A stretch of 64,000 bases of DNA from an uncultured Bacteroidales bacterium. GTDB taxonomy: Bacteria > Bacteroidota > Bacteroidia > Bacteroidales > Bacteroidaceae. Shown one piece after another: positions 21,743-50,885 of this stretch. How positions within the stretch are numbered: the first letter of the stretch is position 1; every line of letters begins with the position of its first letter. Location of the stretch: NCBI GenBank assembly GCA_902786925.1, contig CADAEK010000002.1:186001-250000 (forward strand), read 5' to 3'. Below the pieces are notes generated by a model that saw only the letters and a list, made by a program, of their open reading frames with translations, ran no database searches and was not told where the DNA came from. Made by a program: the position numbers and the translations under genes.

Positions 21743-22795
21743 ATGAAGAAATTAGCAATAGTCATATTGAACTGGAACGGTGCCGACATGATGCGCCAGT
21801 ACTTGCCGTCGGTGCTGGAGAACAGCGTGGGTGATGTCATTGTGGCTGATAACGCCTCCACCGACGGAAGTGTGCAAATGCTGCTTGACGAATTTCCTGA
21901 AGTGCCCGTGGTGGTGCTTGAGCAGAACTTTGGCTTTGCCGAGGGCTACAACCGTGCTCTCGCGCAACTGCCCGACTACGAGTACTACCTCCTCCTCAAT
22001 TCCGATGTGGAGATACGGCAAAAGGATTGGGACGCACCCATGATTCAGTACATGGACACCCATCCAGGTTGCGCCGCTTGCCAGCCCAAACTGCTTGCGT
22101 TACGTCAGCAGCCAACTGTCAACTGTCAACTGTCAACTGTCAACTGCTTTGAATATGCCGGTGCGGCAGGTGGCTTCCTCGACAAGTATGGCTACCCCTT
22201 CTGTCGTGGACGCGTGTTCGATACCGTTGAGCAAGACCAAGGACAGTACGACGATATCGTGCCCCTCCTTTGGGGTACAGGAGCCGCCCTCATGGTGCGT
22301 GCCTCCGACTGGCACAAGAGTGGGGGACTCGATGCCCGCTTCTTTGCCCACATGGAAGAGATAGACCTCTGTTGGCGACTCCGCACCATGGGCAAGAGCA
22401 TCGTCTGCATCGCTGAAAGCCAAGCCTTCCATCTGGGAGGAGCTACCCTCCATCAGGGCAATCCTCGCAAGACCTTCCTCAACTTCCGCAACAACCTCCT
22501 CATGCTCTACAAGAACCTGCCTGATGCAGAACTCAAGAGCGTGATGCGTATCCGCTGCCTCCTCGACTATCTCGCTGCCCTTCAGTTCCTTCTCAAAGGA
22601 GACCTCAAAAACTGCTCAGCCATATTCAAGGCACGGCGCGCATACGCCCAGATGCGTCCCGACTTCGAGAAAGACCGCCGCCATATCCAGCAATTGCGCC
22701 GAAACGAGCGAGTGCCTCAGCGTGTGGACTTCTCCCTGCTCTGGCAGTATTATGTGAGAAAGAAAAAGACTTTCAACGCTCTGATGAATAGATAA
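21743..22795 (+). CDS. Family 2 glycosyltransferase with in-frame heptamer repeat
   Basis: A 350-residue GT2 of the rhamnosyltransferase-like type: VILNWNGADMM, ADNASTDGS, LLNSDVEI (DxD-equivalent) and the HMEEIDLCWR acceptor-site block. It probably adds a sugar to a surface polysaccharide. Residues about 124-135 (PTVNCQLSTVNC) are encoded by five tandem 7-bp units at 22113-22147, inserted in an otherwise conserved domain. Losing or gaining one unit would shift the frame. The start MKKLAIV at 21743 fits the family; the longer frame overlaps mtaB. Confidence 0.88.
   Translation: MKKLAIVILNWNGADMMRQYLPSVLENSVGDVIVADNASTDGSVQMLLDEFPEVPVVVLEQNFGFAEGYNRALAQLPDYEYYLLLNSDVEIRQKDWDAPMIQYMDTHPGCAACQPKLLALRQQPTVNCQLSTVNCFEYAGAAGGFLDKYGYPFCRGRVFDTVEQDQGQYDDIVPLLWGTGAALMVRASDWHKSGGLDARFFAHMEEIDLCWRLRTMGKSIVCIAESQAFHLGGATLHQGNPRKTFLNFRNNLLMLYKNLPDAELKSVMRIRCLLDYLAALQFLLKGDLKNCSAIFKARRAYAQMRPDFEKDRRHIQQLRRNERVPQRVDFSLLWQYYVRKKKTFNALMNR
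22113..22147 (+). repeat. Heptamer repeat, family E, copy 1 (5 x CAACTGT)
   Basis: Five contiguous 7-bp units (CAACTGT four times, then CAACTGC) lie inside the glycosyltransferase reading frame. Five-unit relatives occur at 49868-49902 and 55565-55599. Confidence 0.9.
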
Positions 22796-29388: not shown

Positions 29389-30035
29389 TAAAGGCTTTTC
29401 AGTTCCTTGATGCGTTCTTCGGGATTGGGAGCACCGAACACGTAGCTGCCGGCAACGAGAACATCGACTCCTGCTTCGACGAGACGGCGGCCCGTTTCGC
29501 CGTTCACACCGCCGTCCACTTCTATGAGGGCGTGGCTGCCTGTGCGCTGGATGAGTTCCTTGAGCCGACGTACTTTCTCGGTGGAGTGCTCTATGAACTT
29601 CTGTCCGCCAAAGCCTGGGTTGACGGTCATGAGAAGCACCATGTCAACGTCTTGAATGATGTCTTCAAGCACGCTGATGGGTGTGTGGGGATTGAGCGTG
29701 ACGCCTGCCTTCATTCCAGCAGCGTGTATCTGCTGGATGGTGCGATGCAGATGGGGGCAAGCTTCATAGTGCACGTTCATCATATAGGCTCCGAGGGCTT
29801 TGACCTGCTCGGTGAACTTGCCGGGGTCTACTATCATGAGGTGCACGTCGAGGGGCTTCTGGCATATCTTGGCTACAGCCTGGAGCACGGGAAAGCCAAA
29901 ACTGATGTTGGGCACGAAGACGCCGTCCATCACGTCGAGATGGAGCCAGTCTGCTTCGCTGCGGTTGAGCATGTCTATATCCTTGGCCAGATTGGCAAAG
30001 TCGGCAGCAAGGAGTGAGGGTGATACTTTGGTCAT
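29388..30035 (-). CDS. rpe: Ribulose-phosphate 3-epimerase
   Basis: A 215-residue TIM-barrel epimerase interconverting ribulose-5-phosphate and xylulose-5-phosphate. SPSLLAADFANL, HLDVMDGVFVPNIS (metal ligands His and Asp), MTVNPGFGGQKF and EVDGGVN are all intact. It overlaps the upstream coiled-coil gene by 4 bp and comEC by 1 bp, so the three are probably co-translated. Confidence 0.96.
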   Translation of the reverse strand: MTKVSPSLLAADFANLAKDIDMLNRSEADWLHLDVMDGVFVPNISFGFPVLQAVAKICQKPLDVHLMIVDPGKFTEQVKALGAYMMNVHYEACPHLHRTIQQIHAAGMKAGVTLNPHTPISVLEDIIQDVDMVLLMTVNPGFGGQKFIEHSTEKVRRLKELIQRTGSHALIEVDGGVNGETGRRLVEAGVDVLVAGSYVFGAPNPEERIKELKSL

Positions 30036-30967
30036 TTGAGGGTGAAACTGGTTTGTCCTATCATTTGGTTGTCACAGAAGACGAAGAGCTTGTAGGTGCC
30101 GGCTTCGAGAAACTCGGTCACATCGCTGTACATGGTCACTTTCTCTTCCTCGCCTGTGTATTCGATGTATTTCTTTTCGGTGTATTCCACGGAGGTGTTC
30201 TCGTAGGTGAAGGTGCCTTTGTTGCCCATCACGGAGTTGTCGGGCTTGAGGATACGTGCATAGAGGGTGCGCTGCCCGTTCTGTGCGGTGACGTTCTTCA
30301 CGATGGTGAATCCGAAGGCGAAGCGCTTCACGTCCTTCACTTTCTTGGCTTCCTTGCCCTTCTTGTCTTTTGGCGTAACCCAGAAACCGGTGGCATCAAG
30401 CTGGGCGGCGATGTTCACCTTGTCCTTCAGCTGGTTGCGCTCGGTGGAGAGGTTGCTGATTTGGGTGTTTGCCACGCTGATTTGTTCCTTGATTTGGGTG
30501 TTCTCTTCGTTGAGCGACTGATTGAGGCGATTGAGCGAATCGACCTGCATGATGTAGCTTCTCAGCACGGCTCTGAGGGAGTTGATTTCTGCCTTGAGGC
30601 GCTTGATCTCTGCGGCATCGGTGGCCTTGGTGCGTTCCAGCTCTTCGAGGAGCTCCTGTGTGCGGCGGCGCTCATCTTCAATTTGGGCGATGAGGCTGTC
30701 GTTGCTCAGCTGGTTCTGAAGCATCTCGTACTGCGCATCGAAGTCGCGGTATTGGCTCACCATTTCTTCTTTCTCCAGCTCTGCCAGTTCTTTCAGTTCT
30801 TCGTTTTCCTGTATCAGTGGCTTGGCATAGAGAAAGTGGTAGCCAAGCACCGCTACCACGAGGGCAACGAGTGCCACGACAATGCCGGTGATGATGAGTC
30901 CAGCGCTGCTTTTCTTCGCGGGCTGCGCTGGCTGCTGCTCCTGGCTTATGTTTTCTTGTTCTTCCAT
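30032..30967 (-). CDS. Membrane-anchored coiled-coil protein
   Basis: 311 residues. A short cytoplasmic N-terminus rich in Glu and Gln is followed by one transmembrane helix (about 23-47) and a long coiled coil (about 50-185). A beta-rich C-terminal domain begins ATGFWVTPKDKKG and ends MIGQTSFTLK. The design resembles the coiled-coil lipoprotein at 6209 (coil plus small C-terminal domain), but it is anchored by a helix. I do not know its function. It overlaps rpe by 4 bp and is transcribed from the left end of repeat element D1. Confidence 0.75.
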   Translation of the reverse strand: MEEQENISQEQQPAQPAKKSSAGLIITGIVVALVALVVAVLGYHFLYAKPLIQENEELKELAELEKEEMVSQYRDFDAQYEMLQNQLSNDSLIAQIEDERRRTQELLEELERTKATDAAEIKRLKAEINSLRAVLRSYIMQVDSLNRLNQSLNEENTQIKEQISVANTQISNLSTERNQLKDKVNIAAQLDATGFWVTPKDKKGKEAKKVKDVKRFAFGFTIVKNVTAQNGQRTLYARILKPDNSVMGNKGTFTYENTSVEYTEKKYIEYTGEEEKVTMYSDVTEFLEAGTYKLFVFCDNQMIGQTSFTLK

Positions 30968-30990
30968 GGGGTTGTGTGTGTTTATGGTTG

Positions 30991-31121
30991 CAAAGGTATA
31001 AAAAAGCGAGAAAAGTGGAAAGTGAATAGTGAAAAAACTATCCCGCTTGTCGTCCGCAGGGTTCGTAACTTGGATTTTTCACTTTTTCATTTTCCACTTT
31101 TCTCGCTTTTTCATACCTTTG
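30991..31121. repeat. Family D element, copy 1: inverted repeat with outward promoters
   Basis: A 131-bp segment with ~48-bp inverted arms (three substitutions, one indel). Each end carries a -7 box facing outward: minus-strand TACCTTTG at 30998-30991 for the coiled-coil/rpe/comEC genes, and plus-strand TACCTTTG at 31114-31121 for nrnA. The arms share GAAAAGTGGAAA and GTGAAAAA. The core includes a GGTTCG/GGACGAC segment. Element D2 at 35412-35541 aligns over the whole length in the opposite orientation. Confidence 0.88.
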
Positions 31122-31143
31122 TACAAAATATGCAAAAGCCTAT

Positions 31144-34346: not shown

Positions 34347-35393
34347 TTATCCCTCGCGGAAGAAGTCAAGCATCTCGAAGATTTCTTCCTTCGTCGCTGT
34401 CTGGTTGATACGGATGTCGCCAATGTCACCCAGCAACGTGAAGTTGATGATGCCTGCCGTATTCTTCTTGTCGTGTGTCATGTAGGTGTAGAGCTCTTCG
34501 TAGTCGTCGCAGGTGACAGCAAGCGTGCCGTAGTTCTCCTTGATGAAGCGGACAGTTTGCCGCATCTTGTCGGTAGGGAACCCTGTCTTGATGCACGAAA
34601 GGTAGAGCTCACATATCAATCCCCATGCAACGGCATAGCCATGTAGGTAAGGCTTGCGGCTCAGCGCCCAGCTCTCAAACGCGTGGCCTGCTGTGTGTCC
34701 TAGATTGAGAGCCTTGCGGATACCATGCTCCAGCGGGTCTTCCTTCACAATGCGCTCCTTGATGGCCACACTGGTGCCCACCATCTGGCCCAAGTGCGGG
34801 TAATCGACAGCATCCAGATCGAAGTTCAGCAGCTCGGCAAAGTTCTTGTCGTTGGAGATGAGACCGTGCTTCAGCATCTCGGCATAGCCAGAGAGAATGT
34901 TCTCATGGTCGAGTGTCTTGAGGAACTCTGTGTCGAGAATGACCGTCTCGGGAGCGTTGAACACACCAATCTCGTTCTTCAGCCCATTGAAGTTGATGCC
35001 CGTCTTTCCACCCACGCTGGCATCCACCATGCTCAGCAGGGTAGTGGGGATGTTAATGTATTTGATGCCACGCTTGAACGTGCTGGCAGCGAAGCCGCCG
35101 AGGTCGGTCACCATGCCGCCGCCCAGGTTCACCATCAGCGAATGGCGAGTGCCGCCGCCATTGCCCAGCTCTGTCCACACTTTAGCCAGCGTGTCCAGTG
35201 TCTTGTGTGTGTCGGTAGCGCCAATGACGATATGTGTGGCCCCTTTGAGGCACGGGATGTCCTGCACGACAGGAAGACACAGCTGCTGTGTGGTTTCATC
35301 CATCAGCAGGAACAATTTGTCGTGCTGCACTTCCGCAATTGCTTCCGTCAGCGTGTGCGCAATATCTGTTGAAATAACTACTTTGTTAGCCAT
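34347..35393 (-). CDS. aroB: 3-dehydroquinate synthase
   Basis: A 348-residue enzyme of the shikimate pathway, converting DAHP to 3-dehydroquinate with NAD and a divalent metal. GGGMVTDLGGFAASTFKRG, DASVGGKTGIN, the HGLI segment and NLGHTAGHAFE are the cofactor and metal blocks. I start at MANKVV, because seven upstream residues would overlap the leader. Transcribed from the left end of element D2. Confidence 0.96.
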   Translation of the reverse strand: MANKVVISTDIAHTLTEAIAEVQHDKLFLLMDETTQQLCLPVVQDIPCLKGATHIVIGATDTHKTLDTLAKVWTELGNGGGTRHSLMVNLGGGMVTDLGGFAASTFKRGIKYINIPTTLLSMVDASVGGKTGINFNGLKNEIGVFNAPETVILDTEFLKTLDHENILSGYAEMLKHGLISNDKNFAELLNFDLDAVDYPHLGQMVGTSVAIKERIVKEDPLEHGIRKALNLGHTAGHAFESWALSRKPYLHGYAVAWGLICELYLSCIKTGFPTDKMRQTVRFIKENYGTLAVTCDDYEELYTYMTHDKKNTAGIINFTLLGDIGDIRINQTATKEEIFEMLDFFREG

Positions 35394-35411
35394 GTGTCTG
35401 TGAAATTTTTG

Positions 35412-35541
35412 CAAAGGTATGAAAAAGCGTGAAAAGTGGAGCGTGAAAAGTGAAAAAACTAAGTGGCGAACCTTGTGGACGACTGGTTGGATAGTTTTTT
35501 CACTTTTTGTGTTCCACTTTTCATGTTAATTGCTACCTTTG
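35412..35541. repeat. Family D element, copy 2: inverted repeat with outward promoters
   Basis: A 130-bp homologue of D1. Outward -7 boxes are TACCTTTG on the minus strand (35419-35412, for aroB) and TACCTTTG on the plus strand (35534-35541, for rfbC). The shared blocks GAAAAGTGG and GTGAAAAAACT occur in both arms, with a core CGAACCTTGTGGACGAC. Its arms are more diverged near the right end than those of D1. Confidence 0.86.
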
Positions 35542-35563
35542 CAAAAGAAAAGAAAGATACATT

Positions 35564-36136
35564 ATGATTCAGGTAATTGACACAGCGATAGAAGGCGTGA
35601 AAATCATAGAGCCGAAGCTTTTTGGCGATGCTCGTGGCTACTTTTTCGAGTCCTTCTCACAGAGAGAGTTCGAAGAAAAGGTTTGCAAAACCGTGTTTGT
35701 ACAGGACAACGAGAGCCGTTCTGTGGCAGGAGTGGTGCGTGGCCTGCATTTCCAGAAGCCACCGTTCACCCAGTCCAAATTGGTGCGTGTGGTGAAAGGA
35801 GCCGTGCTGGATGTGGCGGTTGACATTCGCAAGGGCAGCCCTACTTTTGGACAGCACGTGTCGGTGGTGCTTACCGAGGATAATCACCGCCAATTCTTCG
35901 TGCCTCGAGGCTTTGCCCATGGTTTTGCTGTGTTGAGCGATGAGGCTGTGTTCCAGTATAAGTGCGATAACTACTACGCTCCTCAGAGTGAAGGCGCTAT
36001 TGCTTGGGACGACCCCGATTTGGGTATCGACTGGCAGGTGCCCACGGAGAACCGCATTCTTTCGGAGAAGGATGCTCATCATCCACGGTTGAAAGATGCC
36101 GAGTTGGTTTTCGATATCAACGTGCCATTGTATTGA
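35564..36136 (+). CDS. rfbC: dTDP-4-dehydrorhamnose 3,5-epimerase
   Basis: A 190-residue cupin epimerase of dTDP-L-rhamnose synthesis. GDARGYFFESF, VRGLHFQKPP with catalytic His62, VDIRKGSPTFG and PRGFAHGF are intact. The other rhamnose genes (rfbA, rfbB, rfbD) are not adjacent, so the pathway is dispersed. The start follows the element D2 promoter by 22 bp. The downstream glycosyltransferase is on the other strand. Confidence 0.95.
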   Translation: MIQVIDTAIEGVKIIEPKLFGDARGYFFESFSQREFEEKVCKTVFVQDNESRSVAGVVRGLHFQKPPFTQSKLVRVVKGAVLDVAVDIRKGSPTFGQHVSVVLTEDNHRQFFVPRGFAHGFAVLSDEAVFQYKCDNYYAPQSEGAIAWDDPDLGIDWQVPTENRILSEKDAHHPRLKDAELVFDINVPLY

Positions 36137-37998: not shown

Positions 37999-38038
37999 AG
38001 AAAGCGCCTCTAAATTCCTCCTTACTGTACCTCACAGG

Positions 38039-38103
38039 CGGTCTGAGTCACACCGCCTATACCGGTCTGAGTCACACCGACACCCTCGGTGTGACTCAGA
38101 CCG
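38039..38103. repeat. Dyad-array repeat, family A, copy 2 (3 units, 24-bp period)
   Basis: Units of 17 bp at 38039, 38063 and 38087, exactly 24 bp apart: CGGTCTGAGTCACACCG twice, then the reverse form. TTTTTG follows. The reverse complement of copy 1 (946-1010) aligns with it, including the second spacer (GCACCCT against ACACCCT) and the TTTTTG. It lies between convergent genes. Confidence 0.85.
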
Positions 38104-38226
38104 TTTTTGTGGTGTAGGAAGGACCTTTGGAGCGATGAACGAAAAAGCCCTCTGCACGAGCATCGCTGCCAGTGCAAGAGGGTTTGCGCACATTGTTTAA
38201 CTTATCTAATTACTAACACGTGTATG

Positions 38227-50711: not shown

Positions 50712-50717
50712 GTAATG

Positions 50718-50885
50718 TACAATTTATAATTTATAATTTATAATAGGCTGACGCGATGAAGTCAATTGAGAATTGAAAATTAGGCTGACGCGATGAGGCT
50801 TTAGTTCTTCGACCTTTGACCTCAGACCTTTGAAGCCAACACGCCGCATGGTTATTATAAATTATACATTATACATTATAAATTG
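50718..50885. repeat. AT-rich inverted and direct repeats before rsmD
   Basis: The left arm (50718-50745) of AATTTATA units and the right arm (50850-50885) of ATTATACATT units are roughly complementary. Between them TAGGCTGACGCGATGA occurs twice (50744-50759, 50781-50796) and GACCTTTGA twice. The rsmD GTG follows 5 bp later. The whole can fold into one long hairpin. Confidence 0.7.

Follow-up and report, generated by a model that had tools for sequence, protein, structure and literature searches.

A dispersed hairpin repeat with heptamer-array arms, and helical spacing of divergent promoters, in a genus of rumen Bacteroidales

We analyzed a window of 64,000 nucleotides (positions 186,001 to 250,000 of contig CADAEK010000002.1, assembly GCA_902786925.1) from an uncultured bacterium of the Bacteroidales (family Bacteroidaceae, genus of rumen Bacteroidales) whose genome is 92% complete. 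The subject is a palindromic repeat that occupies two gaps between divergently transcribed genes. Copy 1 lies in gap 30968-31143, between a leftward run of genes and an nrnA-like gene of the DHH family, and copy 2 lies in gap 35394-35563, between genes for a 3-dehydroquinate synthase and a dTDP-sugar epimerase. Promoters were predicted as matches to the TAnnTTTG consensus of the -7 box, and genes in fetched DNA are codon-score open reading frames (ORFs) called in this analysis. The features of the two gaps are as follows.

30991 to 30998, minus strand: -7 box TACCTTTG of the leftward gene 30032-30967 (rpe and comEC behind); identified from the sequence, the boxes being kept in many orthologous gaps while the interior changes
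31008 to 31035, plus strand: left arm of copy 1, four GTGAAAA-type heptamers (heptamer parse and alignment)
31036 to 31076, unstranded: hairpin core of copy 1, 41 nt (alignment of 49 copies)
31077 to 31104, minus strand: right arm of copy 1, mirrored heptamers plus one extra base (heptamer parse; 31003-31109 folds as one hairpin)
31114 to 31121, plus strand: -7 box TACCTTTG of the nrnA-like gene (DHH and DHHA1 domains), box-to-box distance 115 bp (sequence, spacing and Pfam)
35412 to 35419, minus strand: -7 box of the 3-dehydroquinate synthase gene 34347-35393 (aroB)
35426 to 35527, unstranded: copy 2 of the hairpin element (inverted-repeat search, match between copies and folding)
35534 to 35541, plus strand: -7 box of the dTDP-4-dehydrorhamnose 3,5-epimerase gene 35564-36136, box-to-box distance 114 bp

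Copy 1 is an inverted repeat with arms of 47 nt each (30991-31037 and 31075-31121), 85% complementary without gaps and 37 nt apart; with one gap allowed, three substitutions and one indel remain, as a preliminary description of this 131-bp segment had stated. That description also correctly assigned an outward -7 box to each end, since the consensus is matched by TACCTTTG at 31114-31121 on the plus strand and by CAAAGGTA at 30991-30998, which is TACCTTTG on the minus strand. The homologue that it placed at 35412-35541 in opposite orientation was recovered as copy 2, an inverted repeat with 55-nt arms (35407-35461 and 35492-35546, 82% complementary) that matches copy 1 with 79% identity in the opposite orientation (E 7e-28); the two also match in the same orientation (74%) because the element is palindromic. 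As plus-strand RNA, copy 1 has a folding energy of -49.8 kcal/mol (z -9.5) and copy 2 one of -50.7 kcal/mol (z -9.3), and 0/200 shuffles were as good. Together, the complementarity of the arms, the match between copies and the folding scores indicate an inverted repeat far beyond chance. The location of copy 1 between an rpe/comEC operon and nrnA held in part: rpe (PF00834) and comEC (PF03772) belong to the same leftward run, but the gene that adjoins the element (30032-30967, minus strand) encodes a 311-aa protein with no Pfam match, and rpe and comEC lie behind it. Searching the window against Rfam at the gathering threshold detected two tRNAs only.

A search of 61 genomes (37 in the genus and 24 outside) with a 190-bp segment at a cutoff of E<=0.001 returned family matches in 33, of which 30 belonged to the genus; the three genomes from outside had one weak match each. 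Scoring was limited to 13 candidates per genome, which makes all copy counts per genome lower bounds. The named relatives are metagenome drafts, and the other genomes consist of many contigs. From 1.02 Mb of fetched DNA, 88 distinct copies were gathered, including further copies in the own genome beyond the pair in the window, in agreement with the suggestion that the segment belongs to a repeat family. Sixty-three of the 88 copies, with a score of at least 80, made up the stronger-copy set. The usual plan is four GTGAAAA heptamers, an A-run, a core, a T-run and heptamers in mirror image, and exactly four heptamer units were found in 91 of the 126 arms of the stronger copies. In an alignment of the 49 copies that had at least four heptamers per arm, cut to four, the core measured 38-42 nt in 38 copies and 51-57 nt in 11; the common core reads ATCTAAGTTAC..CCATTCGGATGG..GTAACTTAGAT. 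Within a copy, the two arms also mirror each other's departures from the consensus: among the 54 of 63 stronger copies with at least three heptamers in each arm, 38 deviations from the consensus heptamer were common to both arms, versus 14.2 +/- 2.6 in permuted sets (maximum 24; 0/5000 reached the observed number). An alternative core of the GCTACCGCAC..GTGCGGTAGC type occurs with the usual arms at loci L029, L041, L043 and L109, and the usual core occurs with AGTTAAA-type arms at L053. Cores and arms thus occur in different combinations and appear to be separable modules.

The -7 boxes belong to the neighboring genes and are not part of the repeat. Among the 176 ends of the 88 copies, a box was present at 80 of the 110 ends that face a gene start versus 3 of the 60 that face a gene stop, the rest lying in called genes that run through the copy (4 ends) or having no neighbor in the fetched stretch (2 ends). 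For the stronger copies, the corresponding counts were 66/87 and 3/38, with one end unassigned. Of the three boxed stop-facing ends, two had the gene end 200 and 610 nt off, and at the third the motif lay 6 nt out. Intact arms stand at gene ends at L018, L132 and L153, and no box accompanies them there. Boxes thus follow the orientation of the neighboring gene, which does not support the proposal of the preliminary description that the repeat supplies paired promoters; a bidirectional promoter element, which would carry its boxes whatever the neighbors, fails on the same stop-facing count. The register of boxes and arms is nevertheless tight, the box starting 9-10 nt past the last full heptamer at 54 of 69 boxed ends; at 11 further ends, the parse had scored the T-run of the spacer as an extra heptamer unit. 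At 14 of the 38 stop-facing ends of stronger copies, the called stop codon falls inside the arm, at offset -4, -11 or -18. In divergent gaps, 23 GTGAAAA copies are boxed at both ends. For these copies, inverted copying of the boxes was considered and rejected, as the spacer, the variable NN of the box and the 12 nt downstream were no more alike between the two ends than between permuted pairs. A divergent gap in the last 1.7 kb of L158, a locus of genome G010, has one promoter that is an almost perfect inverted copy of the other (GGCTACAAAGGTAGG), as though it derived from it; because the 23 copies show no excess likeness between ends, we regard these look-alike promoters as an anecdote.

Divergent boxes stand at quantized distances of about 10.5n + 0.5 to 1.3 bp, with clusters at 22, 32, 43-46, 53, 64, 74, 85, 95, 105, 114-117, 126-129, 137 and 148 bp. 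The exploratory set (41 of 82 gaps, after removal of orthologous gaps of equal spacing) gave a Rayleigh R of 0.81 at 10.5 bp (best period 10.4, p ~3e-12); R was 0.86 for the 18 gaps in which no array was present. Only gaps with exactly one box per side were used in this set and in the stretches from the own genome and three relatives. After the exploratory set, the test was applied unchanged to new data. In 20 additional stretches of the own genome, each of 20 kb, 10 of 22 divergent gaps were usable (R 0.88), and in stretches from three relatives 12 of 21 were (R 0.87). A strict pattern search of the whole own genome yielded 17 pairs in the 17-47 bp range and 19 in the 48-78 bp range, compared to one pair in each for a reversed-pattern control. 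These 36 pairs had R 0.80 at a best period of 10.5 (p ~1e-10; 0/20000 uniform simulations), and all except one, at 59 bp, were within a quarter turn; the whole-genome pair sets overlap gaps of the earlier sets, so that the spacing tests are not wholly independent. At 48-78 bp, the four of ten relatives whose pairs were listed in full had p-values of 4e-5 (G036), 6e-5 (G028), 0.002 (G016) and 0.014 (G008), values that take no account of remaining orthology between genomes. In a sister genus, the 8 pairs among the matches listed had R 0.77 (p 0.009). The spacing rule was found again in five relatives but in none of four controls.

The control distances were unphased. Divergent box pairs (n=78) had R 0.76, and in the same gaps start-to-start and box-to-start distances had R 0.16 and 0.12. 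Values were also low for tandem boxes (R 0.23, n=16), convergent boxes (R 0.05, n=7) and non-box CAAA..TTTG pairs (R 0.05, n=115). The 23 GTGAAAA copies that lie between two boxes, at 108-129 bp, conform to the rule (R 0.69). Replacing TA in one box by another dinucleotide left pairs mostly unphased; TT pairs had R 0.33 (n=58, p 0.002), and AG and CT (9 and 13 pairs) had p 0.04 and 0.03, so weaker boxes may share the spacing rule. The pair search was extended to 148 genomes, with G125 and G186 (one listed pair each) left out of the analysis; pair sets were partial for G039 (14/47), G154 (14/19) and G095 (8/24), and the remaining genomes provided counts only. In 0.7 Mb of stretches fetched from other families, only 10 gaps were usable, an uninformative set whose distances (4, 11, 13, 31, 69, 82, 83, 121, 123 and 174 bp) were not visibly phased.

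The DNA upstream of the box follows a related rule, in single promoters too: runs of at least four A or T are phased at 5.6 + 10.5k nt from it. Between 12 and 80 nt upstream, single promoters of the own genome had 47 runs with R 0.44 and divergent promoters had 126 with R 0.66, at a phase of 5.6-5.7; in three relatives, the values were 69 runs and 97 runs, each with R 0.53. When each promoter was turned by its own random phase in 5000 rounds, the observed R was reached in 0/5000 for each of these four sets. Measured from the start codon, the same quantity was 0.12, reached in 959/5000. Beyond 80 nt, the signal fades in single promoters (856/5000) and is weaker in divergent ones (23/5000). Pooling five genomes of other families gave 164 runs with R 0.20 (p 0.001, phase 5.5), and G038 alone had p 0.001. 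A/T runs at helical spacing from the core promoter, as expected of a phased A-tract upstream element, are thus present in single and in divergent promoters. The spacing of divergent pairs follows from this single-promoter rule, because two promoters that share runs at 5.6 + 10.5k would lie 2 x 5.6 = 11.2 bp apart, or 0.7 modulo 10.5, and the observed remainder is 0.5-1.3.

Comparison of orthologous gaps, as the preliminary description had advised, revealed other arrays or none between the same boxes, with states turning over between close species. The nrnA gap was examined at 30 loci, 19 of which, including the window, have identical flanking gene families. Boxes were often kept while the DNA between them differed or had no clear array (L043 and L048, for example). 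The interior was a GTGAAAA hairpin in the window, L037 and L051, an ACTGAAA/ACTAAAA hairpin in L042, a short TTGAGAA-type hairpin in L063 and L066, a GATAAAT-type array in L038 and L044, and a GGAATTA array in L039, L040, L047 and L052. L047 and L052 are 92.8% identical over 13 kb, and one divergent gap contains an AATTGAC hairpin in the former versus an AAACTAA hairpin in the latter. Similarly, a gap on contig 3 holds the element in the own genome and in G022 (81% identical), and G010 (90% identical) has an unrelated interior between the boxes. The gaps compared therefore show replacement of the interior between fixed boxes rather than clean insertion. We dropped an apparent 100% identity of the copy 1 gap between the own genome and G010, since the flanking 250-column blocks were 98% and 94% identical. 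At the convergent GH97-aroB gap, inspection of 12 loci by eye showed an ordinary hairpin in nine of them and the element in its place in L039 and L053; in the remaining locus, L061, the gap is 478 bp long.

Heptamer arrays are not limited to this family. The window and 41 loci chosen around nrnA (554 kb) contained 49 tracts of period 7, compared to 0, 0, 1, 3, 5, 5 and 13 at periods 4, 5, 6, 8, 9, 10 and 11, 25 at the double period of 14, and 0 at periods 12, 13 and 15. At a slightly lower threshold, 45 of 55 tracts were intergenic, 23 of these in divergent gaps. Some arrays lie inside genes, in loops of a family-2 glycosyltransferase-domain protein and of a UbiA-family protein; in related species, these loops are filled by other arrays, shorter or empty. 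The window contains three such features outside the two gaps.

22113 to 22146, plus strand: CAACTGT heptamer array in an ORF with a family-2 glycosyltransferase domain, the loop being empty or otherwise filled in relatives
50714 to 50884, unstranded: heptamer hairpin with AATTTAT arms at 50714-50744 and 50854-50884, immediately past a called stop codon
55561 to 55600, plus strand: AATTCTC/AATTGTC heptamer array in a UbiA-family (MenA-like) ORF

Judged by eye, the core of the 50714-50884 hairpin, AGGCTGACGCGATG..CGCATGG, resembles sequences in L039, L047 and L160 that are accompanied by other heptamers. Across the genus, matches to a degenerate heptamer pattern ranged from 0 (G023) to several hundred (G025 and G028); the reversed pattern also matches arrays and is not a clean control. 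Three-frame stop codons were rejected as a rationale for the heptamers: they are present in 44 of 45 arrays, yet shuffling the heptamers still gives them in 90%. Two other repeats were encountered. Palindromes at 946-1010 and 38019-38123 of the window share GGTGTGACTCAGACCG and are perhaps a separate family, and GCGCAGGGTGCAC repeats at 978-1084 of L098 (own genome, contig 3), which match at least 10 places in G010, look like another dispersed repeat.

We consider it probable that the hairpin repeat is an AT-rich filler that fits helix-phased divergent promoters. On this explanation, the window segment is one copy of a dispersed hairpin repeat with heptamer-array arms. The DNA upstream of a -7 box carries A/T runs on one helical face, 5.6 + 10.5k bp off, a rule that the sequences themselves establish, and divergent promoters sharing that DNA show the quantized distance of ~10.5n + 0.5 to 1.3 bp. 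Heptamer arrays and hairpins would take the place of the DNA that separates two boxes, or a box from a stop codon, and would be retained where they have the length and register needed to hold the runs in phase. Judging from sequence, the runs are probably an upstream element contacted by the alpha subunits of RNA polymerase, or else bent DNA, and they may take over from a poorly conserved -33 element at promoters of the sigma-ABfr type. At gene ends, the hairpin would probably serve as stop codon and two-way terminator, TGA codons of the heptamers ending the frame. Arrays would be generated and mirrored by a copying process acting on hairpins and 7-nt units; hairpin-templated copying would fit the mirrored arms. 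A broader claim, to which we give somewhat less than an even chance, is that A/T runs located 5.6 + 10.5k bp ahead of the -7 box serve the lineage (and faintly the order) as the upstream recognition element; that divergent genes share one set of runs, so that their promoters could stand only whole turns apart, out to ~150-200 bp; and that interchangeable spacers for this place come from a system of 7-nt satellites and hairpins, which an enzyme would copy and mirror, and are swapped between species while the promoters stay.

Several results weigh against the filler explanation. No recognized box is present at 30 of the 110 start-facing ends. Phasing of the runs relative to one another is only weak (R 0.13 over 986 pairs, with a best period of 8.1), and a 7-bp repeat is two thirds of a turn, so that not every heptamer run can be in phase. 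In other families, 66 pairs pooled from eight genomes gave only R 0.24 (p 0.02) at a similar phase, and none of these genomes alone fell below 0.05. At 48-78 bp, the best period scatters (10.1 in the own genome, 9.8 in G008, 11.2 in G036, 10.7 in G028 and 11.8 in G016). Gaps with several boxes or with one missing were left out, amounting to 12 of 22 in the new own-genome stretches. Finally, the 9-10 nt register is also found at copies with one promoter (15/21, with six more at a parse-shifted register of 1-3), and phasing of divergent pairs alone therefore does not explain it.

The view of the preliminary description, a mobile element that carries both outward boxes and seeds divergent promoters, is largely refuted, and we rate it as very improbable. 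Both window copies are boxed at both ends, as are 23 divergent copies in all, 108-129 bp apart, but 57 of 60 stop-facing ends lack a box even where the arms are intact, orthologous gaps keep their boxes and change their interior, and the spacers and flanks of the two ends resemble each other no more than permuted ones. A non-autonomous transposon, or miniature inverted-repeat transposable element (MITE), moved by a transposase and found flush between boxes or stop codons because of selection on the place of insertion, is unlikely, although the element has the attributes of one: it is short (arms plus core of 94-113 nt in 49 copies), noncoding and terminally symmetric, its 88 distinct copies include related cores dispersed at unrelated loci, and the same core occurs with other heptamers in L053. 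Against a MITE, the close pairs compared (window versus G010, L047 versus L052) differ by replacement and not by clean insertion, the arms are variable heptamers instead of one terminal sequence, target duplications were not demonstrated (no formal duplication scan was made), and no parental element was seen in a search that covered Y1 transposases only. In that search, Y1 transposase (PF01797) had 0 matches in the 92%-complete own genome and none in the copy-bearing G002, G007, G010, G013, G015 and G022; matches were weak in G003, G005 and G016 and strong in the copy-bearing G004, G014 and G019. Repetitive extragenic palindromes and bacterial interspersed mosaic elements (REP/BIME) mobilized by REP-associated tyrosine transposases (RAYT) were rejected on this basis, since no Y1 transposase was found in the own genome and relatives with and without one both bear the repeat. 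Also set aside was site-specific recombination at -7-like CTnDOT sites; the motif string was absent from the papers among the matches listed.

A bidirectional intrinsic terminator as the main function everywhere, with adjoining promoters incidental, would account for the long stem, which is flanked by T-runs and had z -6.7 to -13.7 in the six folds made, for the invariance of the inner T-run in the 49 aligned copies and for the replacement of an ordinary hairpin by the element in the GH97-aroB gap of L039 and L053. However, between divergent promoters the element lies in neither transcript, and a scan for G+C-rich stems with short loops flagged the ordinary hairpin at 34344-34310 and neither window copy, although the scan as a whole was no better than shuffles (5 versus 4.9). 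We regard this possibility, too, as unlikely. It is quite improbable that the arrays are neutral 7-nt microsatellites formed by replication slippage, with no role and with phasing due to background A-tract periodicity only. An excess of heptamers is described for several bacteria in the available parts of two reports (PMC4692102 and PMC4679880), arrays also occupy ORF loops, and phasing of the TT-for-TA pairs would agree with such a background; on the other hand, runs are phased to the box and not to the start codon, non-box CAAA..TTTG pairs are unphased, and mirrored arms around a conserved core are not expected from slippage.

The analysis turns a curious repeat into a readable rule: the distance between divergent promoters is a whole number of helical turns, and AT-rich spacers that are quite unlike in sequence conform to it. 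The rule predicts workable spacer lengths for the design of Bacteroidales promoters and offers a reason for the elusive -33 motif in some Bacteroidetes. Swaps between close species at fixed sites make the puzzle of heptamer satellites testable, and the contrast in heptamer load from none to hundreds could serve the hunt for the responsible gene.

REP/BIME palindromes with RAYT transposases are likewise small, dispersed and located at gene ends; unlike these, the present hairpin has heptamer arms, and no Y1 transposase was found in the own genome. Upstream A/T runs whose helical position matters are a feature of the phased A-tract and UP elements of bacterial promoters, and the helical position of a repeat upstream of the promoter of the Helicobacter pylori sialic-acid-binding adhesin reportedly matters as well. 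The rule described here differs in being genus-wide, tied to the Bacteroidetes -7 box and common to both members of divergent pairs, so that their spacing is quantized. Our literature searches on the repeat and on divergent phasing, in the portions of text that they returned, brought up no account of the hairpin family or of genome-wide phasing of divergent promoters. The TAnnTTTG box is that of the Bacteroides sigma-ABfr promoter, and the accessible part of that account reports that a -33 element was not identifiable in Flavobacterium and does not mention phased runs (PMC7366714). The BrickBuilt MITE of Porphyromonas gingivalis is similar in that it is an intergenic Bacteroidales element with tandem repeats in an inverted-repeat frame; the excerpted report describes units of 23 nt, ends formed by a leader and a tail, a total of 19 copies in one strain and outward promoter activity in E. 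coli assays (PMC4596501). The hairpin repeat differs from BrickBuilt by its 7-nt units in mirrored arms, its boxes outside the repeat and its copies across the genus. Heptamers of Beggiatoaceae, Cyanobacteria and some Bacteroidetes (PMC4679880) and of Xanthomonas and Nostoc (PMC4692102) likewise form intergenic 7-nt arrays, sometimes as inverted pairs, that differ between close relatives; in the parts of these reports at hand, one unit is favored (TAACTGA; GGGAATC) and the hairpin family is not described. The hairpin repeat departs from those published heptamers in having many units, mirrored arms of four units, a conserved core and a fixed place between -7 boxes.
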